NCBI GenBank assembly: GCA_902796225.1
Contig: CADBOO010000155.1
Location: 1-34,307, forward strand
Direction: 5' to 3'
Source of the DNA: an uncultured Ruminococcus sp.
Lineage (GTDB): Bacteria > Bacillota > Clostridia > Oscillospirales > Acutalibacteraceae
Length of the DNA stretch: 34,307 nt
In this document: positions 18,239-32,686 of the stretch, piece after piece
Position numbering within the stretch: position 1 is the stretch's first letter
How the letters are laid out: each line of letters starts with the position of its first letter
The notes under the pieces: generated by a model
What the model saw: the letters and a program-made list of their open reading frames with translations, nothing else
Told to the model about the DNA's origin: nothing
Databases searched by the model: none
Made by a program: the position numbers and the translations under genes

Positions 18239-18961
18239 TTACTTATGACTCTTATAATACTTGTATTTATAATAGTATCCGCTTTTCTTATAGTATTTCT
18301 TTGGCGTTCCTTTGCAATTGTACGCCACTCCGATCACTCTTGCTTTGGTAAGGCGCAGCTGCTGCAGCATCTCATCAATCGTTTTATTCTCGGAAAAATT
18401 GTGTCTCATGACAACAAGATAACCGTCAACCTGATCGGACATCATCACAGCGTCGGAGACGACGTTGACCGGAGGAAAATCAAAGACGATAAAATCATAT
18501 CTGCTCTTTAATAAGGCAACCAGGTTCTTCATCTCTTCCGAATCGATCAAAGCGGTCGTATCGGGGGGGATATTTCCGGACGGGATCACATCAATCCCCA
18601 ACTCTTCCACATGAACGATCGGGACATCCGAACAGTCGCCCGAAAGATAATTAGACAAGCCGGGGACGGATTGTATTCCGAGTTTGGACGCAACGGTCGG
18701 CAACCTCATATCACAATCGATCAGCATGATCTTCTTATTCAGCTGTGCAAGTGAAAGCGACAGATTAGCAGCAATCGAGCTTTTTCCCTCTCCCCGATTT
18801 GCAGAGATAATGCCGATGCACTTGCAGCCCTTTCCCGGCAGCGAGAAAATGATATTGGTGCGCATCGTTTTGTATGCTTCCTGCATAGCAAAAGATGAGG
18901 AGCCCGAAAGGAGCATTTTTGAAGCATCAAAAATCGGAGCAGATGATCTATTCTTTTTCAT
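18239..18961 (-). CDS. Bacterial tyrosine kinase (CpsD/YwqD-like) controlling polysaccharide synthesis
   Basis: The 240-residue cytoplasmic P-loop kinase has Walker A ANRGEGKSS (about 54-62), the BY-kinase Walker A' IMLIDCDMRLP (about 78-88) and Walker B FIVFDFPPV. The C-terminus is a tyrosine cluster with eight tyrosines in the last 18 residues (SGYYYKYKYYK), the usual autophosphorylation tail. In Firmicutes this kinase needs the membrane partner encoded by the preceding gene, and their cycle controls chain length and output. The ATG at 18959-18961 has GGAG 11 bases upstream and lies 16 bp after the partner's stop. The longer frame from 19027 overlaps the partner. No CpsB-type phosphatase is seen in the window. 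Confidence 0.92.
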   Translation of the reverse strand: MKKNRSSAPIFDASKMLLSGSSSFAMQEAYKTMRTNIIFSLPGKGCKCIGIISANRGEGKSSIAANLSLSLAQLNKKIMLIDCDMRLPTVASKLGIQSVPGLSNYLSGDCSDVPIVHVEELGIDVIPSGNIPPDTTALIDSEEMKNLVALLKSRYDFIVFDFPPVNVVSDAVMMSDQVDGYLVVMRHNFSENKTIDEMLQQLRLTKARVIGVAYNCKGTPKKYYKKSGYYYKYKYYKSHK

Positions 18962-18977
18962 TGCTGTTATCGCTCCT

Positions 18978-19751
18978 TTACGAAGATTTCTGACGATAGG
19001 CATATTCATATTTTGAATTGTATCCATAACCCTTTGTTTCCAAATGATTCACGTCCGGTATGACGCCGAGAATCGGAATGCCAAAGCGTTCTTCAACTTC
19101 GTTTTCGTTTTTAACCGTATCGTCAGAATAAAACCGAATGATCAGTATTACGATTACCAAAGCCATGCCGATCAACAGACCGAGAAGAGCATATCTCGAA
19201 TAACTCGGCTTATATTTTGTATCGTTGTATTCGGGATAGTCGATAACCTTCATCGAACTTCCTTCAACGATATCAGCCATATACTGCGGCGATATTTTCG
19301 CTATCTCATTCGCAAGATCATATGCTACCTTCGGATCCTTATCTACGACATAAACCGTAATGATCTCAGTCTCATTCTGTATCTCAGTCGTCACCATTCT
19401 CTGCAGCTGAATATACGAATTCTTCAGTCCCAGATTTTTTGCAGCATTCATCAGGATCGTCCTGCTCTTAAGTATCTCTGCATACGTCTTAACAAGCTCT
19501 TTCGACGCCAAAAGATCGGAATTGGTGAGAGAACCGTCATTTGTTTTCATTTGCTGGTTGTTGACGTAGGCTTTAAAGCTGCTGCGGTATGTCGGTTTGA
19601 TCGTCATCTTTGTCACGCCGAAAAACACTACCGCAAAGACCACGCCCACTATAGCTATGATCCATGATTTTTTAAGCATTTCTTTTAAGAACGGAATCAG
19701 GTTGATCTCCCACTCAGAAGAACGCCTTTTACTGTTTTTGCTGTTTGTCAT
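18978..19751 (-). CDS. Wzz/YveK-type chain-length determinant and kinase adaptor
   Basis: The 257-residue protein has two membrane helices, IIAIVGVVFAVVFFGVTKM (about 33-51) and LLGLLIGMALVIVILIIRFY (about 189-208). They flank an extracellular domain that includes TIKPTYRSSFKAYVNNQQ and the segment YPEYNDTKYKPSYSRYAL just before helix two. This is the Wzz-domain topology of Gram-positive CapA/YveK proteins. The short cytoplasmic C-terminus activates the separate tyrosine kinase encoded next. It lies between the initiating transferase and kinase genes, as expected for an EPS regulatory pair. Confidence 0.92.
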   Translation of the reverse strand: MTNSKNSKRRSSEWEINLIPFLKEMLKKSWIIAIVGVVFAVVFFGVTKMTIKPTYRSSFKAYVNNQQMKTNDGSLTNSDLLASKELVKTYAEILKSRTILMNAAKNLGLKNSYIQLQRMVTTEIQNETEIITVYVVDKDPKVAYDLANEIAKISPQYMADIVEGSSMKVIDYPEYNDTKYKPSYSRYALLGLLIGMALVIVILIIRFYSDDTVKNENEVEERFGIPILGVIPDVNHLETKGYGYNSKYEYAYRQKSS

Positions 19752-19808
19752 AATAAACCTCTACTCTTCATAATTACAAAAGGTAGTATCATAAACACTC
19801 CTCGTGCA

Positions 19809-20423
19809 TTATTCTTTTGTATGATTGGATACACCGGCAACCCCGTCACGTCTTAACACCGGCAAAACAGAACCGAAAAAGCATCGAAAATCCATCGCGA
19901 ACGCTTTCCATCCGCCCTGTTTCAGCTTGATCGTATAATCGCCGTCCAGCTTTGCCTTAACCGGTATCTCCAACTCATCGCGCCCGTTGATCTGCGCCCA
20001 TCCTGTTAATCCAGGCTTGGCGTCATTCGCCCCATACTTGTCACGCTCAGCGACCAGATCATCCTGATTCCAAAGCGCAGGTCGGGGACCGACAACACTC
20101 ATCTTTCCTGTCCAAATGCAAAACAGCTGAGGAAGCTCATCTAATGAAGATTTCCTCAAAAACTGCTGCCATCGGGACAGCGTCATTTCCTCTGTCATCA
20201 AATGGGTAGGAAGATCCGGATTAGCCGATACCGGCATCGTGCGAAACTTAAATATATAAAAAAATGATTTATGTATCCCGATCCTCTTTTGCTTAAAGAT
20301 CGCTGGACCCGGTGAATCGATCTTTGTAATAATTACAATTATCGCCATAGGGATCGCCGTAATTATGATACCAACGGTAGAAATGATAATATCAATCAAT
20401 CGCTTTACATATCGCTGATACAT
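19809..20423 (-). CDS. Initiating undecaprenyl-phosphate sugar phosphotransferase (small, PglC-like)
   Basis: The 204-residue protein has one N-terminal membrane helix (LIDIIISTVGIIITAIPMAI region) followed by the bacterial sugar transferase domain: FYIFKFRTM, SLDELPQLF with the catalytic Asp-Glu pair, VVGPRPALW, and KPGLTGWAQINGRDE. It transfers a sugar-1-phosphate from a UDP-sugar to undecaprenyl phosphate, the first committed step. Its size fits the short monotopic class rather than the large WbaP/WcaJ type. I chose ATG 20421-20423 because AAGGAGG lies 5 bases upstream; the longer frame adds 24 residues without a site. This is the first EPS gene, 85 bp after the helicase stop. Confidence 0.95.
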   Translation of the reverse strand: MYQRYVKRLIDIIISTVGIIITAIPMAIIVIITKIDSPGPAIFKQKRIGIHKSFFYIFKFRTMPVSANPDLPTHLMTEEMTLSRWQQFLRKSSLDELPQLFCIWTGKMSVVGPRPALWNQDDLVAERDKYGANDAKPGLTGWAQINGRDELEIPVKAKLDGDYTIKLKQGGWKAFAMDFRCFFGSVLPVLRRDGVAGVSNHTKE

Positions 20424-20508
20424 TTCCGCCTCCTTGATATCCTTTCTGTTTGTTATTATCCGATCCAAACACATCCTTTTGCAGTTGAACGTCAACCGTT
20501 TTTCTCAG

Positions 20509-22845
20509 TTAATAGGCTCTTTCTGATTCAGCAGTCTTGTTCCACCACATTCCTATTGTGTCAAGTTTCTCTTTTTTATCTGAAGATAGCTTTCCTTTGT
20601 GTTGCATGACCCTCTGAAAGCTGAGCCATGCATTAAGCCGTACGCCCTCGGCTTTGTAGTCGTGAGGCACTCTTAGATTACCGTTTTCCAAATAGTATCT
20701 TTTTGCAAGGAGGAAGGATTCATCCCATGTATGAACCAGTCGATTGCTCCAATTAGGATCGAGTTTGTTCAGTCGTTCTACATACTTTTTCTCTAATTGC
20801 CCTTTGCTATACTTGGTTCGCTGCTTGCAAAGCCAAACGCCCAATCCAAATCCGTTCTTTGTTCTGTACCGGTTTTGTATATCGATATTTCCATGGGTAC
20901 TAAAGTATTCAACAAGCAAACCATATGCTTCGTCCCATTGGATCTCTTGACGGGTTCGCCATTCCATTCCAATCTCATTGAGAGCAGAAATCCGTTCTTC
21001 GGATAAACGAGTGCTTGTAGTTTCTCCGGACTGGACTTTCCGGTACTCAATCCTTACCTTAGTCAGCCACTCATATAACCTGATGCCGTCGTCATCCACA
21101 TAGCCTTTAGGAACCGACAGATTTCCAAACCTTTCATAATACTTCATTGCAGAAGAATAATTGCGATCCCAAATGTGGTCGTTTCCGCTCCAGATCATTC
21201 CTATTTCATCCAACTTTTTGATGTGCCAATCAGAGAATACAGCAGTTCTGATTCCGTTCTTTCTCCATGCTCTCAAGTTGCTGATCCATACACCTAGTCT
21301 GATACCGTCCTCAGTGATATACGAGGCAGGTATTCTCAAATGACCGTGTTCACGGAAAAAGGCACAAGCTGCTTTATAGTTCTTTTCCCAATTACGCTGC
21401 TTTTTGCTTTCCCAAACAATCCCGATTAGTTCTAACTTTTTGATCTGATCATCAGTAAGTATGCCTCCCTGATACCCAGCATACACTTGCTTTTGCGTTT
21501 GCAGCCATATGCCGAGTGTGTATCCCTCAGGGGTTCTGTATTTTGCGGGTATCTCCAGATTACCGTATTGCTCATAATACTGCTTTGCATACATATACAT
21601 AGTTTCGAACGGAACTGACAGAATATCGTTCAGCTCGTCAAAGATCTCTTTGGCGTCTCTGACCTCATCGATCACTTCAAAATGCTCGTTAACAATATAA
21701 TTATCAGCGCCGATCGAGCGATAATAACCGGCTGCAATTTGTATTTCCTGTTGAATGGTACCGATAGAATAGAGGTTCTCAATATTATTTACAATATCAA
21801 AAATCACAGAAACGTTATTTTTTCCTGCTGCCAAAGCGCGTCCAATCTGCTGTTTATAGATGATCGGAGAAACCGTCGGTCGAAACAGTATCACACCGCT
21901 GATGTCATCTACATGGATGCCTTCGTTAAGCATATCAATGGCATATAGAAGTTTCAAATGACTACTGTCATCATTCTTAAAATCGTTGAACTCTTTGCTG
22001 GTAGTCGGATCCTCAGAATATGCAGTATAGATATGCGGATCGGGATCGACCGCCCCAAACCAATCTTTTGCTTTGCTCTGCATTTCACGCAGGTGCGCAA
22101 TATTAGAACAGAACACGATGTATTTTCCCGTCCTGTTATCCATATGTTTATCAAAAATCTTGTCCAGTCCCTCGGACATCTCCAATGCCCGCCGCAATGC
22201 TTCTAAATACTTTTCCGCTCGATCCCTGACTGCTTTTGTTTTTGCACCTTTTACACGACGCTTTATCCGATCATAATCTTCCTGATAGGTGAATACAGAA
22301 AGAACATATTTCGGAGGATTAAGAATTCCTCGAACGATTGCTTCGCCTAGTGACATTTCGGATGCAATATTACCGTCAAACAGCTCGTCAGCCATATTGC
22401 GTTGGTTATCCAAATAACGGATCGCAGTTGCCGACAGACCAAGAATAGGTGTGTCCGGATACATGGAGAGCAACCGATCGACACCTTCGCCCCACATTTC
22501 AGCGCCGCAGCGGTGAAATTCATCGAGGATAATGTAATCAGGATTAATCTCCAACAGATCGGTTTCATCCATCAGCATCAGCTTTGCATAGGTAAAGAAG
22601 ACCACGTTATCCGGAGTCCAACCATCAGTGTCTGCTTTCAGGTTTTCAAGCTGCGTCTTAAAGATATACTCAGAAGGAGATAACCAACAAACAGTCTTGT
22701 CGGGATATTGCTCACATAGCTTAAATGCTATATAAGACTTACCCGTTCCGGTAGGGTGAACGACAGCGGCCTTGCCGGTATCTGCAAGCATTTCAATCAC
22801 TGCGTTGTAAGCCGCCTGATTGTGTTCAAATAATGATATGCTCAC
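20509..22845 (-). CDS. DEAD/DEAH-box helicase with five helicase-associated repeats
   Basis: The 778-residue protein has a superfamily 2 core in its first roughly 400 residues: Walker A VHPTGTGKSYIAFKL near the start, the II/DEAH-type box ILDEFHRCGAEMW (DEFH, about 108), GLSATAIRY, and motif VI QQIGRALAAGKNN. Residues about 410-775 are five helicase-associated (HA) repeats of about 65-70 residues, each with W-x-x-x-[YF], then [YF]-x-x-x-GN/GH-L-x-[IV]-P, then G-x-x-L-x-x-W-[LI]. It is probably an ATP-dependent nucleic-acid translocase; its target is unknown. The GTG at 22843-22845 has AGAGGAG eight bases upstream; the TTG seven codons earlier has none. It lies upstream of the EPS genes with no obvious terminator between. 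Confidence 0.9.
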   Translation of the reverse strand: MSISLFEHNQAAYNAVIEMLADTGKAAVVHPTGTGKSYIAFKLCEQYPDKTVCWLSPSEYIFKTQLENLKADTDGWTPDNVVFFTYAKLMLMDETDLLEINPDYIILDEFHRCGAEMWGEGVDRLLSMYPDTPILGLSATAIRYLDNQRNMADELFDGNIASEMSLGEAIVRGILNPPKYVLSVFTYQEDYDRIKRRVKGAKTKAVRDRAEKYLEALRRALEMSEGLDKIFDKHMDNRTGKYIVFCSNIAHLREMQSKAKDWFGAVDPDPHIYTAYSEDPTTSKEFNDFKNDDSSHLKLLYAIDMLNEGIHVDDISGVILFRPTVSPIIYKQQIGRALAAGKNNVSVIFDIVNNIENLYSIGTIQQEIQIAAGYYRSIGADNYIVNEHFEVIDEVRDAKEIFDELNDILSVPFETMYMYAKQYYEQYGNLEIPAKYRTPEGYTLGIWLQTQKQVYAGYQGGILTDDQIKKLELIGIVWESKKQRNWEKNYKAACAFFREHGHLRIPASYITEDGIRLGVWISNLRAWRKNGIRTAVFSDWHIKKLDEIGMIWSGNDHIWDRNYSSAMKYYERFGNLSVPKGYVDDDGIRLYEWLTKVRIEYRKVQSGETTSTRLSEERISALNEIGMEWRTRQEIQWDEAYGLLVEYFSTHGNIDIQNRYRTKNGFGLGVWLCKQRTKYSKGQLEKKYVERLNKLDPNWSNRLVHTWDESFLLAKRYYLENGNLRVPHDYKAEGVRLNAWLSFQRVMQHKGKLSSDKKEKLDTIGMWWNKTAESERAY

Positions 22846-22873
22846 AGCCTTTTCTCCTCTGCTCAATATGATG

Positions 22874-22896
22874 TAATGAAGTATTTCACTTCATTA
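22874..22896. repeat. Left recombinase-like inverted site
   Basis: Two perfect 9-bp arms, TAATGAAGT and ACTTCATTA, flank a 5-bp spacer ATTTC. The first 18 bases (22874-22891) recur in inverted orientation at 24326-24343. Short inverted arms around a 5-8 bp spacer are the usual layout of tyrosine recombinase core sites. It lies inside the predicted 5' leader of the helicase gene, so it could also form an mRNA hairpin. Confidence 0.65.
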
Positions 22897-22943
22897 TAAT
22901 AGGTTTTTCAATAATACCCCATAATAACTCTATTATCTTATTT

Positions 22944-22972
22944 ATTATAAACACTAATTCAATCAAAGTCAA
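22944..22972 (-). promoter_or_regulatory. Consensus vegetative promoter towards the helicase gene
   Basis: On the minus strand, TTGACT (22967-22972) and TATAAT (22944-22949) are separated by exactly 17 bp, a near-perfect sigma-70/sigma-A promoter. Transcription should start near 22937, giving a leader of about 90 bases before the helicase GTG. That leader includes the palindrome at 22874-22896. The promoter lies inside the candidate invertible segment. Confidence 0.75.
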
Positions 22973-23083
22973 TATAGAAAATACGGACAGAATAGCAATT
23001 ATTCTCATTTTTTGCATTGAAACTATTATTTTTTAGTAATATTCGCTATTTTTATAAACAAAAGGAGTTTTTTTAGAATAAGA

Positions 23084-23124
23084 TTGACGGAAGTTCAATG
23101 AGCTTTGAATCTATTCTCCGTCAA
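23084..23124 (+). promoter_or_regulatory. Leader hairpin or operator upstream of the recombinase gene
   Basis: The outer arms TTGACGGA (23084-23091) and TCCGTCAA (23117-23124) are perfectly complementary. An inner pair TTCAA/TTGAA (23094-23098 and 23105-23109) extends the structure. It ends 28 bases before the recombinase ATG. It could fold in the mRNA leader or be a protein-binding palindrome. Confidence 0.45.
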
Positions 23125-23152
23125 ATACCATTATTAAAAAGGAAGTGCAGTT

Positions 23153-24247
23153 ATGCCCCGAAAAGGAGAAAACATCTACAAACGTAAAGATGGCAGATGG
23201 GAGGCCAGATACATACACCATTATGAAGACGGAAAAGCAAAATATCGTTCCGTCTATGATTATTCTTATCTTGACGTAAAAGCCAAACGCATACAGGCAG
23301 TCGCGAAGATGGATTCCCTCCATACTTCGACCGTAAAGCAACACGCGACTATCGATGAAATCTGCAGCCTTTGGCTGGAGGAAAGAAAAGCGGACGTCAA
23401 AGAATCAACCTATACGCGATATGCTCGCACTATCAAAAAACACATTATCCCCGGGTTTGATAATCATCGTTTAGATCATATTAACGCTGACAAAATCAAC
23501 GATGTTCAGAGACATCTTAGAGAAAACCTCTCGGATAAAACTGTTACAGATATTATGTGCATTTTTAAAAGTATATGGAAATACGGTCAAGAAAACAATT
23601 ACCCCTGCTGTCAATGGAATCAGGAAAGAATCAAGCTGAAGAAAACAAGTAAAGTGACAATTATTCCTACAAACGTTCAAAAAGGCATTGTGTCCGCTTT
23701 GAATAATTATAATGAATATGTATTTCTCGGAGTGCTTTTCTCGCTGTTAACCGACGTAAGAATCGGAGAGATATGAGGCTTGAGATGGGGAGATATTGAT
23801 TTGGATAACGGATATGTAACTATTCGCCGCACGATTGAGCGGATCGCCGATCTGTCAGTTGATACAGATAGAAAAACAAAGGTAATTATTACTGAGCCAA
23901 AGACAGACAACTCCATCAGGACGATCCCTTTACCGGAATACCTTGTTACTCGTATAAAACCCTTTCAAAAAGACGACAACTTTTATGTGTTGACCGGCAG
24001 TTTAAAGCATACCGAGCCTCATACTTTTTATACCAGATACAAGACTTTTCTGAGAAAAAACAAACTCGGTGACTATACCTTTCACGAATTACGGCATACC
24101 TTTGCTACGATGTGCGTAGATCGCGGCTTTGATATAAAGTCACTGTCTGAGATCCTGGGCCATTCTGATGTGAAAACCACTATGAATCTTTATGTTCACC
24201 CGACCTTACAAATGAAAAAAAGGCAAATGGATACACTGTCGTTGTAA
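23153..24247 (+). pseudogene. Tyrosine recombinase (phage-type integrase) interrupted by an in-frame TGA
   Basis: The reading frame is continuous from ATG 23153 to TAA 24245-24247 except for one TGA at 23774-23776. The first part (207 residues) has a basic DNA-binding start (MPRKGENIYKRKDGRWEARY), the SAM-like core-binding domain (TYTRYARTIKKHIIPGF), and reaches catalytic Arg I in DVRIGEI. The second part (from 23777) resumes GLRWGDIDLDNG and has the HELRHTFATM box, LGHSDVKTTMN and the tyrosine in MNLYVH. Relatives commonly read R-I-G-E-I-C-G/A-L-R-W here, so the TGA replaces a cysteine codon (TGT or TGC, one base away). All catalytic residues survive, implying a recent nonsense mutation or a sequencing error. 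The break splits the catalytic domain, so neither fragment should be active. A GGA-type ribosome site lies about 10 bases upstream. Confidence 0.88.
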
Positions 24248-24274
24248 TATCGATTTGCCGTCAAAAAAACCGTC

Positions 24275-24319
24275 AAGCTCCTAAAGCGTACTGATGAACA
24301 GTGGCTTCGGGAGCTTTTT
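24275..24319 (+). terminator. Rho-independent terminator after the recombinase gene
   Basis: Arms AAGCTCC (24275-24281) and GGAGCTT (24310-24316) can pair, with extra AAG/CTT pairing inside. A TTTTT run at 24315-24319 follows on the plus strand. It starts 28 bases after the recombinase stop codon and ends just before the right inverted site. Confidence 0.6.
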
Positions 24320-24320
24320 G

Positions 24321-24343
24321 TCATAAAGTGAAATACTTCATTA
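24321..24343. repeat. Right recombinase-like inverted site
   Basis: It reads TCATAAAGT, spacer GAAAT, ACTTCATTA. The right arm is identical to that of the left site and the left arm matches 7 of 9 positions. The spacer is the reverse complement of the left site's spacer. Positions 24326-24343 are an exact 18-base inverted copy of 22874-22891. An 11-base direct match (ACTTCATTATA at 22888 and 24335) also exists because the sites are themselves palindromic. Confidence 0.65.
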
Positions 24344-24370
24344 TATTTTCGTGTGTTGACTTCCAGATTA

Positions 24371-25507
24371 TTAATAATAATTACTTATTCGACAATTACC
24401 ACCTTGCACATCGTAACGCAAAACGTATCCATCTATGAAAAATACAACACACGCACAGTGACAGCCCGGCTCAAGGATGTTGGTGTATATATTATAGGTC
24501 ATAATTGATGTTTTATCGATTTGATTTGGATATAGTAGCATAGATGTCAATTCTAAATCACGTGCTGCATAAGCAACATAATCTGCCCCAATATTGCAAT
24601 ACACTTGTGCGTAGGTATAATTCTTCGCCACATATTGAGCAAAAGCTGATAGTTTTTCCTGATTAGACATACCACAAGTCCAGCATTTCTTTTCGATCTT
24701 ATGGACTTCTGAAATGGGTCTTGCAATATTGGGGTTATTCTCTGTCATATCTACGGTGATGTTACAGCGCTTGATCAATGATCCGTTATAGAAAAACTCT
24801 ACCGGGAAGGTGAATGATTTCGCTTTAAATCCATAGATCTTAACTCTGAAAGGTTCGCTCCAACCATCATAGTAATGTGCCTCTACCCATGCGACCGCTT
24901 CACCTCTCGGGTTTTTGACAAGACAGTCATAACCAAAAGTCTGTTTGCCGCCACAATACATCAGATACGGTTCCTTGAATTTATAATCGGAGTATTCGAT
25001 TTTATCGAAATAATCGCCGTTGTTCACCTGAATTGTTATATCATCGGGCGCGAGATTCTCTTTTGATCTCAAGATTAGTGCTTTTGTATTATTGCCACTG
25101 TTGTTGATTGTAATACTGTCTGGTATTGAAGATGTATCGAAAGAAACACGTGGTATTGCTTCAGTATTCGGTTCTGAAGCCGACGCCGCTTCATACAAGT
25201 TGCTTTTCGTAACACGACAGCCGATGGGATACGCCAAAGACATCTTTGCAAGCCACCTTTGTATATGTGTTGCGTCAAGAATACAGATCGTTCCGTCTAA
25301 ATCTATATCAGACGAATCCTTATTCTTCTCTGCGATTTCAGACAGCCCTGCAATCTCACGTTGTATAACAGTACAATCTGTAATTGTAATCAACCCATCG
25401 CCATCTGAATCTCCGAGCAGAAATGTATCTTCAGCGCCCTTTACTGGTATACTAAAAGCCATTGAAAGGATAATAACCACACTAATAACTCTGAACAGAT
25501 CCTTCAT
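24371..25507 (-). CDS. Secreted dockerin and transglutaminase-like protein
   Basis: The 378-residue protein has an N-terminal signal peptide (about 1-24, ending PVKGA). Two calcium-binding dockerin type I repeats follow: LGDSDGDGLITITDCTVIQR and SDIDLDGTICILDATHIQRW (about 31-93). They would dock the protein onto a cohesin of a cellulosome-like scaffold. The middle region (about 110-260) looks like beta-sandwich modules. The C-terminal part resembles a transglutaminase/papain-like fold: Cys304 (VYCNIGADYVAYAARDL), His350 (EPGCHCACVVFF) and Asp366 (LRYDVQGG) are correctly ordered for a Cys-His-Asp triad. Protein crosslinking or proteolysis outside the cell is possible. It has its own promoter and strong GGAGG site. 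It may be chromosomal or conjugative-element cargo. Confidence 0.82.
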   Translation of the reverse strand: MKDLFRVISVVIILSMAFSIPVKGAEDTFLLGDSDGDGLITITDCTVIQREIAGLSEIAEKNKDSSDIDLDGTICILDATHIQRWLAKMSLAYPIGCRVTKSNLYEAASASEPNTEAIPRVSFDTSSIPDSITINNSGNNTKALILRSKENLAPDDITIQVNNGDYFDKIEYSDYKFKEPYLMYCGGKQTFGYDCLVKNPRGEAVAWVEAHYYDGWSEPFRVKIYGFKAKSFTFPVEFFYNGSLIKRCNITVDMTENNPNIARPISEVHKIEKKCWTCGMSNQEKLSAFAQYVAKNYTYAQVYCNIGADYVAYAARDLELTSMLLYPNQIDKTSIMTYNIYTNILEPGCHCACVVFFIDGYVLRYDVQGGNCRISNYY

Positions 25508-25519
25508 GCAAATTCCTCC

Positions 25520-25544
25520 GTTATGTTTTTCTTTAACATAACGA
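25520..25544. promoter_or_regulatory. Perfect palindrome (putative operator) at the dockerin gene promoter
   Basis: Two perfect 9-bp arms, CGTTATGTT and AACATAACG, are separated by 7 bases. On the minus strand the palindrome covers the predicted -10 element and the start-site region, and it abuts the GGAGG ribosome site. Only part of it would be transcribed from the predicted start, so a repressor-binding operator is more likely than an RNA hairpin. Confidence 0.6.
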
Positions 25545-25564
25545 ATTATGGAAAGATATGCAAT
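25536..25564 (-). promoter_or_regulatory. Promoter of the dockerin gene
   Basis: On the minus strand, TTGCAT (25559-25564) and TATGTT (25536-25541) are separated by exactly 17 bp. The expected start near 25529 would give a leader of about 20 bases containing the ribosome site. The -10 element is part of the palindrome at 25520-25544. Confidence 0.5.
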
Positions 25565-25612
25565 GCTGCGATTTGGTTAATCGCAAATAATCAATACTAA
25601 TGATAAAGCAAA

Positions 25613-25649
25613 AATCACGGCTCCGGGAACAATCCCCAGAGCCGTGATT
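25613..25649 (-). terminator. Strong terminator ending the conjugation operon
   Basis: A perfect 11-bp stem (AATCACGGCTC and GAGCCGTGATT) has further GGGA/TCCC pairing in the loop. On the minus strand it is followed by a T-rich run (GATTTTTGC). It lies 35 bp after the stop codon of the CHAP/lysozyme gene. An AATAATC stretch on the other side makes it weakly bidirectional. Confidence 0.85.
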
Positions 25650-25683
25650 ATTTTGATTATTGCTATGCTTGTGAACTATTTGA

Positions 25684-27912
25684 TTACGTATGAAAACGAT
25701 TATACGCTACCTCGGCATTATTCGCTCTGCGATTATCTTCAGATGAATAACTGCCGCACCGTTCATACACACGCTCAAACGCAATTGCTGCCGTTCGCGT
25801 ATCGCTTCTCAAAAATTCATCATAGGTTATACCGCCATAGTTCCCTCCGTAGGCAGCAAATTCAGATTGAATTGTCCGTTTCAAATAATCACATTGTACT
25901 GTAATTGGTGAACCTTTAAATCCAACAGGAGTATATCTTAGACACCATTGACATAAGCCATAGTATTCATCTCCGTTATAGTTTCCAACAATACTCCAAT
26001 CAAGGTCAAGTGTATCTCCACCACATTCTCGCATCATATTTCCCATGATACCTGCAACTACGCTGTCGGAATAGCCATAGCTTTTCAGGCGCGTCCAAAC
26101 CTGTGACGCAGTATCTCCGGTTCCTGATACAGAAGAGTTGTTCTGTGTATAAAAGCCATAGCCGAGGATCTCATAATGACCAACCGAATAATGATTCTCT
26201 TTACAGGCGTCGCCTGAATTACCTTCGATGGTATATACAATACCATTCTCGACTTTTTCAACGATTCCGGTGTGATCGCCGCTGCCGTCTAAACCGTCAT
26301 ACTCCCAATCAAAGAAGATGATCATACCGGGTGATGGGGTTTCGTTTCCGTCCAACCATTGATTCTTTCCTTTGAACCAATTGGCCCCGTCATCTACTAC
26401 GGAATAACGAGGGATTATTCCGGAGTCAATGTAACCGCACTCATTTGCACACCACGATACAAAGCAACAGCACCACTCTACACGGGAACTGAATCCATAC
26501 CATGACCAATACGGCTGACCTCCGACGTTTCCGAGCTGTGCCTGAGCCACTGCGACAATATCGCTGTCACCGGATATGGTAATACCGTGAAGCAGCGACG
26601 ACCATAAAGCATCGTTACTGCTATCAAGCAGCTCGTGCATACTGTCTATCTGGTCTTGCGAAAAATGATATTGCGACGCCATCTCATCAGGGGTCTTGTG
26701 AGTTACCGTGATGTGAAGCGTTCTGGTTACTCTTTCTGTAGCTGTGGTACTGCTAGTATTGCCGCCGGACGATGATGAACCGGAAGAAGTAACATTGTGG
26801 GAGATTTCATTCATATCCCAGAAAACCTCTTTGAGCTTTCGCTTTTTGGATTCATCCATCGTCACAACCTCGTCAGGGTCATCCGGATCCATATTCATCT
26901 TCGCAGCATAGACTGCCAGTACATTTTTCCATTCTGCGCGAGCGCCCGACATATCCAACGCGTCATAGGTGTTGGATGACTTAATATCCTCGATTTTCTG
27001 ATTGTACTCATCATTGATTTCCGTTATAGCGTCCCGCATGGTCATTCCGGTTCCTGAATCTTCACCGGAGTAAAAGATGCCAAAAACAGAAGCCAGAAGC
27101 ATTGCAATCATTACAATTACTAGGATAATAACTACCACAATCCAACCTCCTGCGGCAATTGCTGCAATCAAGCTCTTTGTTGCCGCAATGATTGCCTGAA
27201 TAATTTTGATTGTGATCTTAGCAATAGCTTGGGCGGTTTTTGCCGCAGCCTTCGCTGCGGCGCGAGCTGCCTTTACAGCTGTGCGAGCTGCTTTCTCTGT
27301 TGCCTTCGCGGTTTTCTGCGCAACCTTTGCCGCCTCTTTAGAGGTCTTGATAGAAGACTTTGCCGTCTGCTGTGCAGTACGAATACCGTGCTTTGCCGTT
27401 TTGACAGATTGTTTACCGGCGGTTTTGACAGTTTGCTTCGATGCTTTTGCCGCATTATCCTTGATCGTCTTTTTCGTGACTTCGGACGTTTTGGTACGGA
27501 TGGCTTTTGTGTTGGTTTCCGCCGTTTTTACAGCATTGGAGTTTTGAGCTGCTTTTGTCGCAGTACGACCGTTGGATTGCGCCTGTCGAACCGATTTCTC
27601 CGCTTTCTTCTGACGGCTTTTCCGTATAGCTTCTTTTGCTTTTGACTCAACTTTATCAACGCCCTTTTTGGCAGCTTTCTTAGTCAGCTTTGCGGATTGA
27701 TGTGCTGTTTCGCTTGCGCCATTTTTGACGCCGCTTTCAAAGCTGTCGGCGTTGCGGGCGTTGTAGCTGTCCTCAGACGTCGACTGTGCGGCTTCGGCTG
27801 AATGCTTCTCAGTGACCTTTACACCGGTACGAATACGCTGTGCCATATTCTCAGCGCGGTTGAGTGTCTTGACAGGTGTTTTGTGGCTATCTTTCGTTCT
27901 GATCTCAGCCAT
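25684..27912 (-). CDS. Membrane-anchored CHAP plus lysozyme-like peptidoglycan hydrolase of the conjugation machine
   Basis: The product has 742 residues. Residues 1-235 are a very basic, Lys/Ala/Thr-rich helical region with recurring 'K-A-A-K-T' steps. Residues about 255-280 are one membrane helix (WIVVVIILVIVMIAMLLASV). After a Ser/Gly linker, residues about 450-590 form a CHAP amidase/endopeptidase domain (WCCCFVSWC with the nucleophilic cysteine, GDHTGIVEKV with the histidine). Residues 604-742 match a phage-tail-lysozyme type domain (GIMGNMMRECGG with a likely catalytic Glu, YYGLCQW). In conjugative elements such VirB1-like enzymes open the wall locally for the secretion channel. The ATG at 27910-27912 follows the sortase stop by 10 bp; the longer frame starts at TTG. 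It is the last gene before the terminator. Confidence 0.9.
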   Translation of the reverse strand: MAEIRTKDSHKTPVKTLNRAENMAQRIRTGVKVTEKHSAEAAQSTSEDSYNARNADSFESGVKNGASETAHQSAKLTKKAAKKGVDKVESKAKEAIRKSRQKKAEKSVRQAQSNGRTATKAAQNSNAVKTAETNTKAIRTKTSEVTKKTIKDNAAKASKQTVKTAGKQSVKTAKHGIRTAQQTAKSSIKTSKEAAKVAQKTAKATEKAARTAVKAARAAAKAAAKTAQAIAKITIKIIQAIIAATKSLIAAIAAGGWIVVVIILVIVMIAMLLASVFGIFYSGEDSGTGMTMRDAITEINDEYNQKIEDIKSSNTYDALDMSGARAEWKNVLAVYAAKMNMDPDDPDEVVTMDESKKRKLKEVFWDMNEISHNVTSSGSSSSGGNTSSTTATERVTRTLHITVTHKTPDEMASQYHFSQDQIDSMHELLDSSNDALWSSLLHGITISGDSDIVAVAQAQLGNVGGQPYWSWYGFSSRVEWCCCFVSWCANECGYIDSGIIPRYSVVDDGANWFKGKNQWLDGNETPSPGMIIFFDWEYDGLDGSGDHTGIVEKVENGIVYTIEGNSGDACKENHYSVGHYEILGYGFYTQNNSSVSGTGDTASQVWTRLKSYGYSDSVVAGIMGNMMRECGGDTLDLDWSIVGNYNGDEYYGLCQWCLRYTPVGFKGSPITVQCDYLKRTIQSEFAAYGGNYGGITYDEFLRSDTRTAAIAFERVYERCGSYSSEDNRRANNAEVAYNRFHT

Positions 27913-27922
27913 AGTATCACCG

Positions 27923-28693
27923 TCACTTTCTCTTGGCAATCACAATGAATCGCTCGTTGTCGGCATTGTATTCCGAGGTTGCAAGAGTAAGGAGTTTATC
28001 TCCGTACTTAGCATTCACTCCCGTATCATAGAGGGACAGCTTTTTGCTGTTAGATACAAACTGATTGAAAGAGTTCGGATCATAGGCGTCGACAAAATCT
28101 TGAAACTTGAATGCTTTATCATCATCTGTTGTGAACGGCTGGACGACGACGGACATGATCTCATATTGATTGACCTTTCCGTCAATCTCAAAGGTAATAG
28201 TCTTATGTTTATCGTAAAACTTCTTATTCTTATACTTCTCCAGCTCAGCAAACATAGTACCGTCTTTCATATAGTGCGAGTATATGATTATATTGTCCGA
28301 AGGCTTCTTTACGTCACAGTTTGACTGAACATAGGGGCAACCGTATACAGAATGATTATTGAAGAAATCCCTGACCAGATAATAGTCGGGATAATCGGGT
28401 GTTTGCATGACCGGATACTCTATACTGGTACCATCGATATTCAGCCACCCGATCATATCTTTGTTCTCACCATAATCCAGAGCGTTTTTATCCGTATAAG
28501 GATACTCTGACACTTGGTCAGTAGTTACTTCTGTCGGCAAAAGTGTAAACGTGCCTTCTGTTGATAGTGTCGGTTCTTCTGTCGCCAAATTTTCATCGAT
28601 ATGATGGGCGGCTATGGTAATCACAAAGAACATACCGACAAAGAAACCGACTGCCAGAAGTATAATTAACGCAAGTAATACTTTACTTCTCAT
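27923..28693 (-). CDS. Class B-like sortase with serine at the catalytic cysteine position
   Basis: The 256-residue protein has an N-terminal membrane anchor (VLLALIILLAVGFFVGMFFV) and a sortase domain: IDGTSIEYPVMQTPDYPDYY, IIIYSHYMKDGTMFAELEKY with catalytic His140, and LLTLATSEYNADNERFIVIA near the end. Class B sortases normally read T-L-x-T-C-x-Y at that end block, but here Ser240 (codon TCG) takes the cysteine position. Arg248 is in the expected place for the catalytic arginine. Class B sortases are frequent in Tn1549-like elements, between virB4 and the cell-wall hydrolase. An AAGGAG site precedes the ATG, and the gene lies 28 bp after virB4. Activity may be lost or altered. Confidence 0.87.
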   Translation of the reverse strand: MRSKVLLALIILLAVGFFVGMFFVITIAAHHIDENLATEEPTLSTEGTFTLLPTEVTTDQVSEYPYTDKNALDYGENKDMIGWLNIDGTSIEYPVMQTPDYPDYYLVRDFFNNHSVYGCPYVQSNCDVKKPSDNIIIYSHYMKDGTMFAELEKYKNKKFYDKHKTITFEIDGKVNQYEIMSVVVQPFTTDDDKAFKFQDFVDAYDPNSFNQFVSNSKKLSLYDTGVNAKYGDKLLTLATSEYNADNERFIVIAKRK

Positions 28694-28721
28694 TATTTTC
28701 TCCTTTCACCAAAGGCGAGGG

Positions 28722-31055
28722 TTATTCACCCTCGCCCGGTTTTGTTGTCATCAGTTTATAGAGTTTATTGTCCTTCGGAAATCGGTTGACAAAGGGTACA
28801 AGCGCACTGCCCACCTTAATCAATCCGCTACCTGCTTCGGCGTTTGTGATATAGCCGAGCTGATTGTTGGAGATATTCAGCAGTTCAGCCAGCTTCTCTC
28901 TATCAGTAGGAGCCTGATTCAGCATGATCAGGAACTCGGAGTTTGCGAGCATGGTACGAGCGGTATGGCTCTGGAGCATATCCTCGACGTTCTGGGTAAT
29001 ACCTGTTGCAAATGCGCCGTATTTACGAACACGCTTCCACAGCGTGAACAGGAAGTTAGCGCTGTATTCGTGTTGGAACAGCAGGTAGATCTCGTCGATA
29101 AAGATAAAGGTGGAACGTCCCCTTGCGCGGTTCTGTGTGATGCGGTTGAGGATGCTGTCGAGTACGACAAGCATACCGATCGACTGGAGCTGTTTGCCGA
29201 GGTCGAGAATGTCGTAGCAGATCAGGCTGTTCTTTGTATCCACATTGGTCTGCTTTGCAAACGTATCAAGTGAACCATTGGTAAACAGTTCCAATGCCAG
29301 CGCGATCTCCTGTGCTTCGGGTTCGCTCTGCTTCATTAGTTCTGCGCGGAAATCACGCAGGGTCGGTACGGTACCTGTATAGTCATTCTGCTGATAGGTA
29401 CGATATACCGAGGCGGTACAGCGGTCGATGATCGACTTTTGTATAGCTCCCAAGCCCTGCGACCCGATCAACTGCTCACAGAGCGACATGATGAACTCGG
29501 ATTTGAGGATGACCGGGTTTGCGCCGTCGCCGTACTCAACGCTCATATCCATCGGGTTGATATGATTCTGCGATGTTGCCGAAATGTGGATAACCTCGCC
29601 GTTCATTGCCCTGACCAACGGCGAATACTCACGCTCGGGATCAATGATGATAATGTCGCAGTCCATCGAAAGCTTCAGCGAAGTTACATCCAGTTTTGCC
29701 ATGAATGACTTACCGCCGCCGGATACGCCGAGCACGAATGCGTTACCGTTCAACAGTTCTCTGCGGTCAGCCATGATCAGGTTGTTCGAGATAACATTCT
29801 GACCGTAATAAATACCTTTGGCGTGATGAATGTTCTGAACACGGAAGCCGTGAAGTGCGGTCAGGGATTCCGTGGTGAGGGTACGGTAGTTCTCGATCTT
29901 CTTCGCACCGATAGGCAGGGCTGTATTCAACCCGTCCATCTGCTGAAATTTCAGAATACCCATCTGACAGCGATCACCTGATGCGGCATTCATCAGCGCT
30001 TTAGTATCGCTGTCGAGCTGCTTCTTGGTATCGGCTGTATGTACCAGCGTTACGGTAGCATAGGTCACGCGGCGGTCTCTGGTCGTCAAGTCGTCAAGCA
30101 TTTCCTTGATGTCGTTCTTCTGCTGTTCCATATCATAGGGAACGGTCGCGGAAAAGTTGTTATTGTTGTTCTGACGGCGCTGCCAGTTGGTGATATTGGT
30201 CTCGACGCCGAGCAGACGGTTCTCCGCTTCTTTTACAGATTCATCAATCGGAACGGGGATGATGTCCACGGAAAGCATGATGTTGCGGTTCAGAGCGGTA
30301 AGATCCGCAAGGATTGTATCTTTGATGTAAGTACCGTATTCTCTCAGGAACAGTACACGACCGTAACGGTCGCCGATCTTGAAATAATCGCCTTCGAACT
30401 CAAAGGAATCGGGAGCGATATAATCCTTGAAGCTGTGTCCGCGTTTGCGGTTGGTCTTGATGTCAAAATCAAAGTTTCCTTCCTCGCCGACACGGTAGAA
30501 GTCGTGCAGAACATGAAGCCGCTCGGTCGTATCCATTTCCACACAAATGCTGCCAAGTTTTTTCAGACGGGCGGTGATCTCCGCACCGGCACGGTTGAAG
30601 TAGGCGCGGGCTTCCTCGACGGTTTTCTTGAATACGGATAAGGTGAAATACTTATCCTGTACCATCGCGTTTGCCCCCGTCGCCTTGTCAAGCAGCATAC
30701 GGTTGTATTCGTGACGATAATCGTCCAGTCCGTCTTCCTTGTCGGAAAGGAGCAGGGTTCGCTCGATATCGAGGCGGTTGATGCGGCGGTTATTGATGGT
30801 GATCTTCGTCGGGACGCCTGCGTCGAGCGTACTGAGGAAGTCGGCATACTCCTGAAGCATATTCTGCTTGTCGTCGTAATCGGCGACAGCATAGTTGATG
30901 TCGGTGAACTTGAAAGACTTGGAGAACAGTTCTCTGCCGACCTGAAAGATACCGTCGTCATAGACGCGCTTGATCGGAATAGCGTCCTGACAGGACTTCG
31001 GTGCGACAAACGGTTCCCTGTTCTTCTTCATAATGCTTAATAGTGTTTTACTCAT
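28722..31055 (-). CDS. virB4: VirB4-family ATPase of the type IV secretion system
   Basis: The 777-residue ATPase has Walker A GVSGGGKSFMAKLD (about residue 445) and Walker B STFIFIDEIYLLF (about residue 652). The C-terminal segment FATGITQNVEDMLQSHTART contains the glutamine-bearing motif of VirB4/TraC-type motors, followed by MLANSEFLIMLNQ. The N-terminal half is the usual all-alpha/beta non-ATPase domain. It powers assembly and substrate transfer at the inner face of the conjugation channel. Its ATG overlaps the end of the PrgI gene by 8 bp (ATGAGTAA), so translation is coupled. Length is normal for Firmicutes elements. Confidence 0.95.
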   Translation of the reverse strand: MSKTLLSIMKKNREPFVAPKSCQDAIPIKRVYDDGIFQVGRELFSKSFKFTDINYAVADYDDKQNMLQEYADFLSTLDAGVPTKITINNRRINRLDIERTLLLSDKEDGLDDYRHEYNRMLLDKATGANAMVQDKYFTLSVFKKTVEEARAYFNRAGAEITARLKKLGSICVEMDTTERLHVLHDFYRVGEEGNFDFDIKTNRKRGHSFKDYIAPDSFEFEGDYFKIGDRYGRVLFLREYGTYIKDTILADLTALNRNIMLSVDIIPVPIDESVKEAENRLLGVETNITNWQRRQNNNNNFSATVPYDMEQQKNDIKEMLDDLTTRDRRVTYATVTLVHTADTKKQLDSDTKALMNAASGDRCQMGILKFQQMDGLNTALPIGAKKIENYRTLTTESLTALHGFRVQNIHHAKGIYYGQNVISNNLIMADRRELLNGNAFVLGVSGGGKSFMAKLDVTSLKLSMDCDIIIIDPEREYSPLVRAMNGEVIHISATSQNHINPMDMSVEYGDGANPVILKSEFIMSLCEQLIGSQGLGAIQKSIIDRCTASVYRTYQQNDYTGTVPTLRDFRAELMKQSEPEAQEIALALELFTNGSLDTFAKQTNVDTKNSLICYDILDLGKQLQSIGMLVVLDSILNRITQNRARGRSTFIFIDEIYLLFQHEYSANFLFTLWKRVRKYGAFATGITQNVEDMLQSHTARTMLANSEFLIMLNQAPTDREKLAELLNISNNQLGYITNAEAGSGLIKVGSALVPFVNRFPKDNKLYKLMTTKPGEGE

Positions 31056-31413
31056 GGTTCTTCAGAACCTCCTTCTTTTTCTTTTCCAGATATGGTTTAG
31101 TCATCTCATAGTAGAGATTGGTGGATTTATACGAGAGCTTCTTGGGGGTGAGGATCTCCGATTTGATCCATGCCCACAAGAACTTTTCCGCCGTCATGCC
31201 GTTGTATTTCAGAAAGCCTAACGCGGCAAACGGAGCGGCGGCGAGAATACAGATCCACGATACGGTCTCTGTCCCTAAGATCGGTTTAAGGACAAAGATA
31301 ATAGAGCCTGCTACGATACAGGCAAGGGCAGAAAAAATGAGCTGACGTAACGACAGCCCAAAGAATACAGCCTCCGAGTAATTTCGGATCTCTTTATTGA
31401 TTTTTATTTCCAT
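31048..31413 (-). CDS. PrgI family conjugal transfer membrane protein
   Basis: The 121-residue protein begins MEIKINKEIRNYSEAVFFGL, followed by LRQLIFSALACIVAGSIIFV and a second hydrophobic helix WICILAAAPFAALGFL. GMTAEKFLWAWIKSEI and a basic tail come next. This is the PrgI/VirB3-like family that is nearly always encoded directly before virB4 in Gram-positive conjugative elements. It probably links the VirB4 motor to the membrane channel. A strong AAGGAGG site precedes its start and its stop overlaps the virB4 start. Confidence 0.92.
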   Translation of the reverse strand: MEIKINKEIRNYSEAVFFGLSLRQLIFSALACIVAGSIIFVLKPILGTETVSWICILAAAPFAALGFLKYNGMTAEKFLWAWIKSEILTPKKLSYKSTNLYYEMTKPYLEKKKKEVLKNHE

Positions 31414-31423
31414 AGTTGCCTCC

Positions 31424-32260
31424 TTACAGACCCATCATTTCACGAACGATACGGTCGGACATTTTTACGGTTCCTACAAGGACAAGCATATTGAATACCA
31501 TCTGTCCTATGTACTCCCATACTTGGTTGACGGCTGATGCGTCGGAACTCACACTCGGCGAACTTGACGCAATCAGAGAGAAAATAATACAGCCGAGAAC
31601 AATAACAGCGCCCTCCAGACAGACGGCGCAGTAGCTTTTCAGGAATTGTTTGCCGACATTCTGTGTGGGCTCACCTGCAAAGGTCGAAAGCGGCAGCGGA
31701 GCGATAGCCGTATACATATACAGCTTAAAGAATCTGCCATAAACGGTCAGAATCAGCACAAGTGAAATGACCGTAACGACCAGACTGCCTATGAGGGATA
31801 CCGCCCAAAGCGGGATGCTTTCGAAGAATCCGCAATCTTCTATCGCGTCCACGATACTGTCGGGCAAGGTCAGGTTATTGGGATTGGTGATACCGGATGC
31901 CGTCATAATCGTATTGATCGTACCTTGTATGATGTTGAACAAGGTCAGCATCAGTTCCATGCCTTGCGTAATAACAGCTTTTGCCAATATGAATCGGACA
32001 AACAGTTTTAATGCGTGTTCGGGTTTCTTCACATCAGCAAAGCTGCCGCAGGTTTTTACCATGCCGACAACAAAGAACAGTACCAGCAGACCTAAACCGA
32101 TACCCTGAACAGCGGTGTTGATATTCTCGATAACGGACCAAATCGTCCCTCCATTGAAATTCTTGGGCGTTTGTGTGATTAGACTCCATATCTTGGTCAG
32201 ATAGCCGTTCCACGTAGACAGAGCGCTTTCCAGATTCTGAACAACCCAGTTATCAGACAT
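31424..32260 (-). CDS. TrbL/VirB6-like channel protein
   Basis: The 278-residue polytopic protein has an N-terminal amphipathic part (MSDNWVVQNLESALSTWNGY) and about six membrane segments, including GIGLGLLVLFFVVGMVKTCG and LWAVSLIGSLVVTVISLVLI. The family-typical block YMYTAIAPLPLSTFAGEPTQ and a following KQFLKSYCAVCLEGAVIVLG are clear. It corresponds to the conjugal transfer TrbL family of Tn1549-like elements and would form the inner-membrane channel. GGAGGTGCAAAT precedes the ATG. It is separated from the Maff2 gene by a 58-bp gap carrying the hairpin at 32284-32311. Confidence 0.92.
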   Translation of the reverse strand: MSDNWVVQNLESALSTWNGYLTKIWSLITQTPKNFNGGTIWSVIENINTAVQGIGLGLLVLFFVVGMVKTCGSFADVKKPEHALKLFVRFILAKAVITQGMELMLTLFNIIQGTINTIMTASGITNPNNLTLPDSIVDAIEDCGFFESIPLWAVSLIGSLVVTVISLVLILTVYGRFFKLYMYTAIAPLPLSTFAGEPTQNVGKQFLKSYCAVCLEGAVIVLGCIIFSLIASSSPSVSSDASAVNQVWEYIGQMVFNMLVLVGTVKMSDRIVREMMGL

Positions 32261-32283
32261 ATTTGCACCTCCTTCGGTTTATT

Positions 32284-32311
32284 AGGGGTATGCGTTGATG
32301 CGCATACCCCT
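32284..32311. other. Perfect 11-bp stem-loop between the Maff2 and TrbL genes
   Basis: Arms AGGGGTATGCG and CGCATACCCCT are fully complementary around a 6-base loop. No U-run follows on either strand, so it is not a normal intrinsic terminator. In the operon mRNA it would sit just downstream of the small Maff2 gene, where it could stabilise the upstream message or act as a processing site. Confidence 0.7.
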
Positions 32312-32318
32312 CGTTTGG

Positions 32319-32672
32319 TTATGAGCCGGTAATCAGGTTGAGTATTTCTTTGGCAAAGGTAATAATAATACCGCCCGCAAGGGTCAGAAAACCATTGGCA
32401 CGCTGAGACGGGTCATGGCTCTTGAACGAAAGACCGACCTGCACGATACCTAAGCCCAGCAGGATCAAACCGATGGCGCGGATCAGACCGAAGATGAAAT
32501 CGGACAGGTTATCGATAGCAGTCAGCGGTTCAGATGACGCCGCGAATGCTGTTACGGCAAAAGTGCTGAACAGTAAAACAGCCGCCATGATAACGGCGAC
32601 ATAGATCTGAAAGCCCTTCTTTACCTTCTTAGGCATAGGAAGTTTTTTGGTTTTGTTGTTTTTGATATTCAT
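32319..32672 (-). CDS. Maff2 family small membrane protein
   Basis: The 117-residue protein has a very basic N-terminus (MNIKNNKTKKLPMPKKVKKG), one helix followed by an AFAA-type cleavage-like site (VTAFAASSEP), then two further hydrophobic segments with GLIRAIGLILLGLGIVQVGL and GFLTLAGGIIITFAKEI. The GLGIVQVGLSFKSHDPSQRA segment is typical of Maff2 proteins, found between virD4 and trbL in Tn1549-like elements. By size and topology it may be the VirB2-like pilin or channel subunit, which is inference. An AAGGAGAAAT site precedes the start. Confidence 0.9.
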   Translation of the reverse strand: MNIKNNKTKKLPMPKKVKKGFQIYVAVIMAAVLLFSTFAVTAFAASSEPLTAIDNLSDFIFGLIRAIGLILLGLGIVQVGLSFKSHDPSQRANGFLTLAGGIIITFAKEILNLITGS

Positions 32673-32686
32673 AATGTATTTCTCCT

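Follow-up and report, generated by a model that had tools for sequence, protein, structure and literature searches.

The invertible Hin segment contains a promoter that reads out into its target operon. The invertible promoters of Bacteroides and C. difficile, with the enzymes Mpi and RecV, serve surface polysaccharide and surface protein targets. To our knowledge, the inverted piece in systems of this type holds no recombinase gene. A further class of enzymes, the Int proteins of the Tn1549/Tn916 type, has arm-type direct repeats on both sides.

In the flagellar switch of Salmonella, the gene for Hin lies inside the invertible segment (PMC5903667, available portion). Hin belongs to the serine recombinases and has an enhancer to which Fis binds (PMC3798978, available portion). 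Mpi is one enzyme that serves at least thirteen regions (PMC5903667, same portion). Promoter-bearing invertons with invertase genes nearby have been described in a defined gut community, where restriction-specificity genes also overlap invertons; the available portions of that paper place invertases near invertons and do not describe promoter cassettes that contain a recombinase (PMC11892184). According to the available text of a 2025 review, the PhaseFinder survey looked for invertible intergenic regions, which means that cassettes containing a gene could be missed (PMC11868660).

The locus described here is in our judgement a real invertible-promoter switch, in a self-contained variant with a tyrosine recombinase. 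Going by its sequence, there is little doubt that the feature is a self-contained invertible promoter cassette. Like the Hin segment, it has the recombinase gene within the invertible piece. Unlike Hin, it has a tyrosine recombinase and arm-type repeats, and the design is found at many loci, with differing sites. With the invertible promoters of Bacteroides and C. difficile it shares inverted sites around a promoter and surface targets, but each cassette of this type carries its own recombinase, unlike the regions served by Mpi. Proteins of the Tn1549/Tn916 Int type are the nearest solved relatives by sequence, and the probable arm-type direct repeats on both sides resemble that class, but here the sites are inverted and the unit measures only about 1.4 kb. 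Within the portions of the open-access literature consulted, no description of a tyrosine recombinase cassette of this design was found.

The window cassette and its reversed relative

The window, which is the whole 34,307-nt stretch of DNA that was analysed, is contig G000:C155 of an assembly (G000) of 2.18 Mb in 166 contigs that is 89.7% complete. It contains a cassette of roughly 1.45 kb in front of a helicase-led cluster of exopolysaccharide (EPS) genes. The cassette has an outward promoter and its own recombinase gene, the sole long gene of the unit.

Two inverted arms of 29 nt delimit the cassette, at 22871-22899 (plus strand) and 24318-24346 (minus strand). They are 86% complementary (4 of 29 positions mismatch), with a gap of 1,418 nt. 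Their longest exact run is 18 nt, as the original prediction had it, whereas the flanks, shuffled 400 times, give 9.1 nt on average and 14 nt at most. Read by eye from the letters, each site is a dyad, with arms of 8 nt (TAATGAAG and CTTCATTA) around an asymmetric spacer. On the left, the arms are 22874-22881 and 22889-22896, with the spacer at 22882-22888; the core of the right site is 24321-24343. The spacer matches between the inverted sites as predicted, but the letters favour a length of 7 nt, TATTTCA, over the 5 nt of ATTTC first proposed. Inverted sites with an identical core and spacer are what an inverton has. A search of the 89.7% complete assembly for the 17-nt site core, allowing up to 2 mismatches, gives two places only, and these are the two window sites.

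The predicted signals just inside either site also stand. The left one is a near-consensus outward promoter, TTGACT-17-TATAAT, on the minus strand at 22944-22972, reading left into the helicase. It ranks best of the 12 promoter-like matches in 2 kb, where shuffles give 6.8. Such a candidate promoter inside the segment, apparently aimed at the flanking gene, is again typical of an inverton. On the right, the intrinsic terminator of the recombinase gene occupies 24275-24320 on the plus strand. Its hairpin (24275-24316), followed by a T-run, folds at -21.5 kcal/mol with a z of -4.8. A simple terminator scan did not report this hairpin, and the scan used for the family chose another one in the window, which overlaps the right site. 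Rfam has no match at gathering score over 19500-26000.

The recombinase gene, at 23153-24247 on the plus strand, has 364 codons and lies between the sites, inside the invertible unit, as had been claimed. Its Pfam domains are Phage_int_SAM_3 (SAM-like) and Phage_integrase, the latter of which sets it apart from serine recombinases of the Hin type. Residues R203, K250, H311, R314, H337 and Y347 are invariant among 15 aligned recombinases. We take this R-K-H-R-H-Y set to be catalytic, as in tyrosine recombinases of the lambda-Int/Tn916 type. The nearest solved structures by sequence are 6en0 and 6emy, both named 'Int protein' and presumably from Tn1549.

Two plus-strand features flank the gene. 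To its right, at 24258-24275, there is an arm-type direct repeat, GTC-N9-GTC, with a period of 12 nt. To its left, at 23119-23125, one of the two GTC units is kept. The N-terminal residues are conserved among the aligned recombinases, and Pfam has no arm-domain match in the two family recombinases scanned. The GTC repeats are probably arm sites, one 12-nt-spaced pair on each side of the gene, that the N-terminal region of the recombinase would bind.

The proposed mechanism is that the recombinase encoded by the cassette brings the two inverted sites together and inverts the intervening 1.45 kb, its own gene included. In the ON state, which the window would represent, the left-end promoter would read into the helicase and the EPS genes. 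In the OFF state, the terminator end of the recombinase gene would face the helicase instead.

This second arrangement is found within the genus. At E <= 1e-100 the helicase occurs in 3 of its 161 genomes: that of the window, G185 (locus L117) and G037. All three have a site directly upstream of the helicase, 25-41 nt from its start. L117 has a complete cassette with exact 19-nt sites, a recombinase without an inner stop, and a promoter, TTGACA-16-TATAAT, in the left end. Its recombinase is 58.8% identical to that of the window, the closest among the loci compared (the next is at 44.7%). The terminator end of this cassette, and not the promoter end, faces the orthologous helicase, which is the opposite orientation to the window.

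When the native window is aligned to L117 with BLASTN, there is one match of 1,440 nt at 68.9% and a second, on the opposite strand, of 1,214 nt at 64.9%; helicase and cassette match on different strands. If 22871-24346 is inverted in silico, the result is a single collinear alignment of 2,691 nt at 66.7%. The distance from the cassette to the helicase match is 30 nt in the window and 43 nt in L117. The original prediction had proposed looking for both orientations in related genomes, and held that flipping would put the recombinase terminator in the place of the promoter. L117 has exactly this arrangement beside the same helicase, and the relatives do not all share one orientation.

In G037, the site upstream of the helicase lies only about 30 nt from the start of the contig. 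A break at this point fits an assembly broken by two orientations, as would be expected if both are present. A search in G037 for the missing part of the cassette gave, apart from the site at the helicase, no more than two places, both with 3 mismatches; a reversed control pattern also gave one.

A family of cassettes

Homologs were gathered from 98 genomes including the window's own (95 with a match), from 161 genomes of the genus (97, at 1e-40) and from 394 of the order (133, at 1e-55). From the stronger matches 99 loci were chosen, which together with the window makes 100 loci examined. Inverted repeats with a score of at least 15 are present in 84 of them, versus 5 of 250 mismatched-locus pairs; 16 loci have no repeat of score 15. 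Spacing limits that were set after inspection of the data leave 80 cassettes, near-duplicates included. The site sequences vary widely among cassettes and yet match within each, as a dyad with an asymmetric core.

If at most 1 mismatch is allowed, 41 of the 80 cassettes have an outward promoter in the left interior (shuffle mean 1.1). With at most 2 mismatches this becomes 62 (shuffles 11.7), which leaves 18 without. Inward promoters at the same end are rare, with 3 cassettes at up to 1 mismatch (shuffles 0.5) and 10 at up to 2 (shuffles 8.9). The right interior, counted without a shuffle control, has promoters in either direction in 0 of 80 at up to 1 and in 2 of 80 at up to 2 mismatches. The GTC-N9-GTC pair at a period of exactly 12 nt is present on the coding strand in 58 of 80 left and 44 of 80 right ends (shuffles 1.2 and 1.6), versus 2 and 0 on the opposite strand. 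The right side has an additional peak at 13 nt, with 17 cassettes. A pair spaced 11 or 12 nt is found on both sides in 38 of 80 cassettes, the window not among them. Right ends are terminator-like in 42 of 80 cassettes, versus 11.3 in shuffles and 16 for left ends.

Four of the 20 excluded loci (L048, L105, L121, L172) have good repeats at another spacing or length. At the left end of L105 (G195) there is a 112-nt inverted repeat, about 92% identical, and it looks as if the right end, terminator included, is duplicated there. L048 (G059) has a shorter recombinase, matching from residue 66 on, between inverted repeats of 131 nt, and adjoins a secreted-looking protein of 1,661 aa; it is possibly a second type of cassette.

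A second set was taken from named genomes and consists of the best 80 of 536 confirmed relatives. Within these, repeats scoring at least 15 are found in 40 of the 56 closest and in 0 of the 24 more distant loci, a split that was chosen by rank afterwards and without a spacing filter; a few of the 40, being AT-rich or very long, are unconvincing. The 40 include loci from Butyricicoccus pullicaecorum DSM 23266, Ruminococcus sp. YE71, a Ruminococcus flavefaciens assembly and Lachnospiraceae. Enterococcus has 7 of its 8 loci from the best 80 of 536 among the 40; the right spacing of these loci, 125-296 nt, mostly exceeds that of the main set.

Orientation could be compared for alignable cassettes of at least 600 nt that share a flank within 1.5 kb. 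Among the locus pairs, which are not independent of each other, 18 are in opposite orientation, in about five groups, and 34 in the same. Besides L117 and the window, the opposite groups are L041 and L102 versus L106 (with a regulator of the AraC type in L041), L125 versus L126, L128 and L135 (a signal peptidase gene in L125), L105 and L133 versus L123, L124 and L127, and L161 versus L164, L165, L166, L168, L169 and L171, of which L165 and L168 lack a good repeat. L161 and L169 come from one genome (G439). Their cassettes are 85% identical, and their neighbour gene, a recombinase 93% identical between the two, is on opposite sides: its start lies 34 nt away from the left site at one of the two loci, and at the other 32 nt away from the right site.

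Both orientations, as in invertons, are therefore seen between related species and between paralogous loci; we infer that switching would also go on within present strains. Flipping may be rare or biased, since the 34 pairs in the same orientation include most of the closest ones (L139/L140/L141, L109/L110, L126/L128, L146/L152).

According to a gene finder, an outgoing gene is present at the promoter end only in 16 of the 80 cassettes, at the terminator end only in 36, at both in 15 and at neither in 13. Because the terminator end is the more frequent one, the assembled state would more often be OFF. Pfam was run on 18 chosen neighbour proteins. It finds glycosyltransferases, UDP-galactopyranose mutase, S-layer-homology, LRR (BspA-type) and Big_2 proteins, a carboxypeptidase-regulatory-like repeat protein, trypsin-FHA proteins, signal peptidase, a recombinase, and regulators (AraC, TetR, SpoVT). 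Four of the 18 (L044, L113, L051, L034) have no Pfam match.

At L161, L164, L166, L169, L171, L177 and L178, the gene right next to the cassette also looks like a recombinase, of about 304-310 aa; for L169 this reading comes from Pfam. These cassettes may control another recombinase.

Three loci from three different genera (L139, L140 and L141, in G500, G488 and G270) are 99-100% identical over cassette and flanks, which makes recent horizontal transfer likely. A gene lies 400-450 nt beyond their right site, and we take its start to resemble an rRNA methyltransferase.

Such data could also come from a transposable unit with terminal inverted repeats, in which case opposite orientations would be independent insertions. 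Related recombinases do adjoin unrelated genes, with several family matches per genome, and the near-identical cassettes in three genomes would fit as well. However, paired-site recombination calls for sites of the kind seen here, which vary from cassette to cassette, agree inside each one and consist of a dyad around an asymmetric core. Flipping is a likelier cause than insertion where a cassette lies both ways at the same place, as in the window and L117 and in about four further groups, and the excess of outward promoters and of terminator-like hairpins at the 3' end also argues against this reading, which we consider improbable.

The chance is slimmer still that a conjugative element used this recombinase and these sites for its attachment. 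The right neighbours, on the minus strand at 24371-34297 and outside the switch, do look like the remnant of such an element, with dockerin, CHAP/phage-lysozyme, sortase and TraG-like ATPase genes, and the best matches of the recombinase profile are 'Int protein' entries. But the two sites are inverted and not direct, as they would be at the ends of an integrated element, which also speaks against the attachment site that the original prediction had named as the competing reading of the left site. A third copy of the site was not found in the incomplete assembly (89.7%). L117 has the cassette and the helicase without the window's right neighbours; its other neighbour is a different gene of 553 aa, recombinase-like by eye. 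Most of the 100 loci have a recombinase between inverted repeats and differ in their neighbours.

The dockerin-domain gene, at 24371-25507, is convergent with the cassette and adjoins genes of the conjugation type.

With the invertible cassette as the preferred reading, we lean slightly towards a wider one. There would be a large, previously undescribed class of portable, self-inverting cassettes of about 1.2-1.6 kb, each equipped with a tyrosine recombinase and inverted sites of its own, with arm repeats, an outward promoter and a terminator. These would be spreading among Clostridia and perhaps Enterococcus, and would make the control of EPS, surface-protein and regulator genes, and even of second recombinase genes, stochastic. 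Decay would have left some of them as locked-ON promoters, those of the window and G247 included, and in phase-variable EPS operons the HA-domain helicase would act as a dedicated leader gene. The cassette design itself offers a simple, testable architecture for phase variation in cultured and uncultured gut Clostridia, and recombinases with differing sites could be used as compact switches.

State of the window copy

The recombinase gene of the window has an in-frame TGA at 23774-23776, which is codon 208. The original prediction was right about the gene and did not report this stop. The window copy does not have the intact recombinase of an active self-contained cassette, and because of this interruption it is filed only as a probably inactive copy. 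It is also among the 22 of 80 cassettes without a left GTC pair at 12 nt.

An interrupted recombinase and one altered arm repeat make it probable that the switch is locked ON. Together with the 4 of 29 mismatches between the sites, these two changes suggest decay in the ON state, and the copy may flip no longer. It is conceivable that the TGA is a sequencing or binning error, or that a recombinase supplied in trans acts on the cassette.

Broken copies do occur: in-frame stops are present in five of the recombinase matches at E <= 1e-104, as TGA in the window and as TAA in the other four. Among the matches listed, neither the L117 recombinase nor most of the strong relatives have an inner stop. 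A possible route by which a switch gets fixed in one state is suggested by the window's in-frame stop and by the truncation in G247.

Read-through of the TGA, by selenocysteine or suppression, would leave the window recombinase active, and the stop does sit at a position identical in 14 other aligned relatives, in a frame that stays open past it with the catalytic residues kept; but this is very unlikely, given that the best sub-threshold tRNA match (anticodon loop TGA) fits the general tRNA model at 60.5 bits and reads as a serine tRNA, that broken copies occur elsewhere and that the left arm repeat is changed too. Selenocysteine decoding as such was rejected, as no tRNA-Sec above the cut-off was found in the G000 genome (89.7% complete).

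The helicase and its EPS loci

The presumed target of the window cassette is a helicase of 778 aa with five HA (helicase associated) stretches, on the minus strand at 20509-22845, the first gene of the putative EPS operon. Its most likely start is the GTG at 22845, 25 nt from the left arm, with AGGAG, which resembles a ribosome binding site, in between. The first EPS genes follow at 18239-20495 on the same strand, with Pfam domains of a sugar transferase (Bac_transf), Wzz and an AAA_31 ATPase. The helicase stop is 13 nt from the Bac_transf frame.

At 1e-120, the helicase is found in 11 of the 394 genomes of the order, window included. Apart from the window and G532, which is treated below, these are 9 genomes, and in all 9 polysaccharide-type genes come after the helicase (by eye, from leading residues). 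The original prediction made control of the EPS genes depend on co-transcription with the helicase, and the 13-nt gap together with this gene order in relatives makes co-transcription plausible.

A family recombinase adjoins the helicase in the promoter-facing direction in G389. In G247 the recombinase is truncated, and site and promoter still face the helicase (by eye). In G485 the frame of the helicase itself is broken, and a site-like dyad and a promoter are present without a recombinase (by eye). The stretch examined has no family recombinase (tblastn, 1e-15) in 6 of the 9 genomes, in one of which (G494) only 128 nt of contig precede the helicase match. Four of these six have a different, shorter recombinase-like gene upstream (by eye). 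Several kinds of recombinase accompany these EPS loci, so the helicase is not tied to the window-type cassette alone.

In L204 and in G532 the helicase is at the terminator end of the cassette. Two tandem HA-domain helicases lie between the cassette and polysaccharide-type genes in the latter (L172/L269, G532:C6), and these are 55% and 51% identical to that of the window.

A role in defence was also considered for the helicase and appears less likely. Its PADLOC matches are to parts of other helicase/nuclease proteins, mostly the helicase core, with best E values of 3e-18 for the window helicase and 1e-20 for that of L117. Its position ahead of polysaccharide-type genes speaks more for an EPS role than for a defence role.

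At four loci (L289, L292, L293, L294), EPS genes led by an HA helicase come after a different and shorter recombinase-like gene of 280-297 aa in the same direction (by eye), which is perhaps a conventional switch with an adjacent recombinase. L290 (G347:C6) has a GTC-N9-GTC pair and then a hairpin and T-run some 150-260 nt upstream of the helicase, with no recombinase match nearby. This stretch resembles the right end of a cassette and is perhaps a remnant of one.
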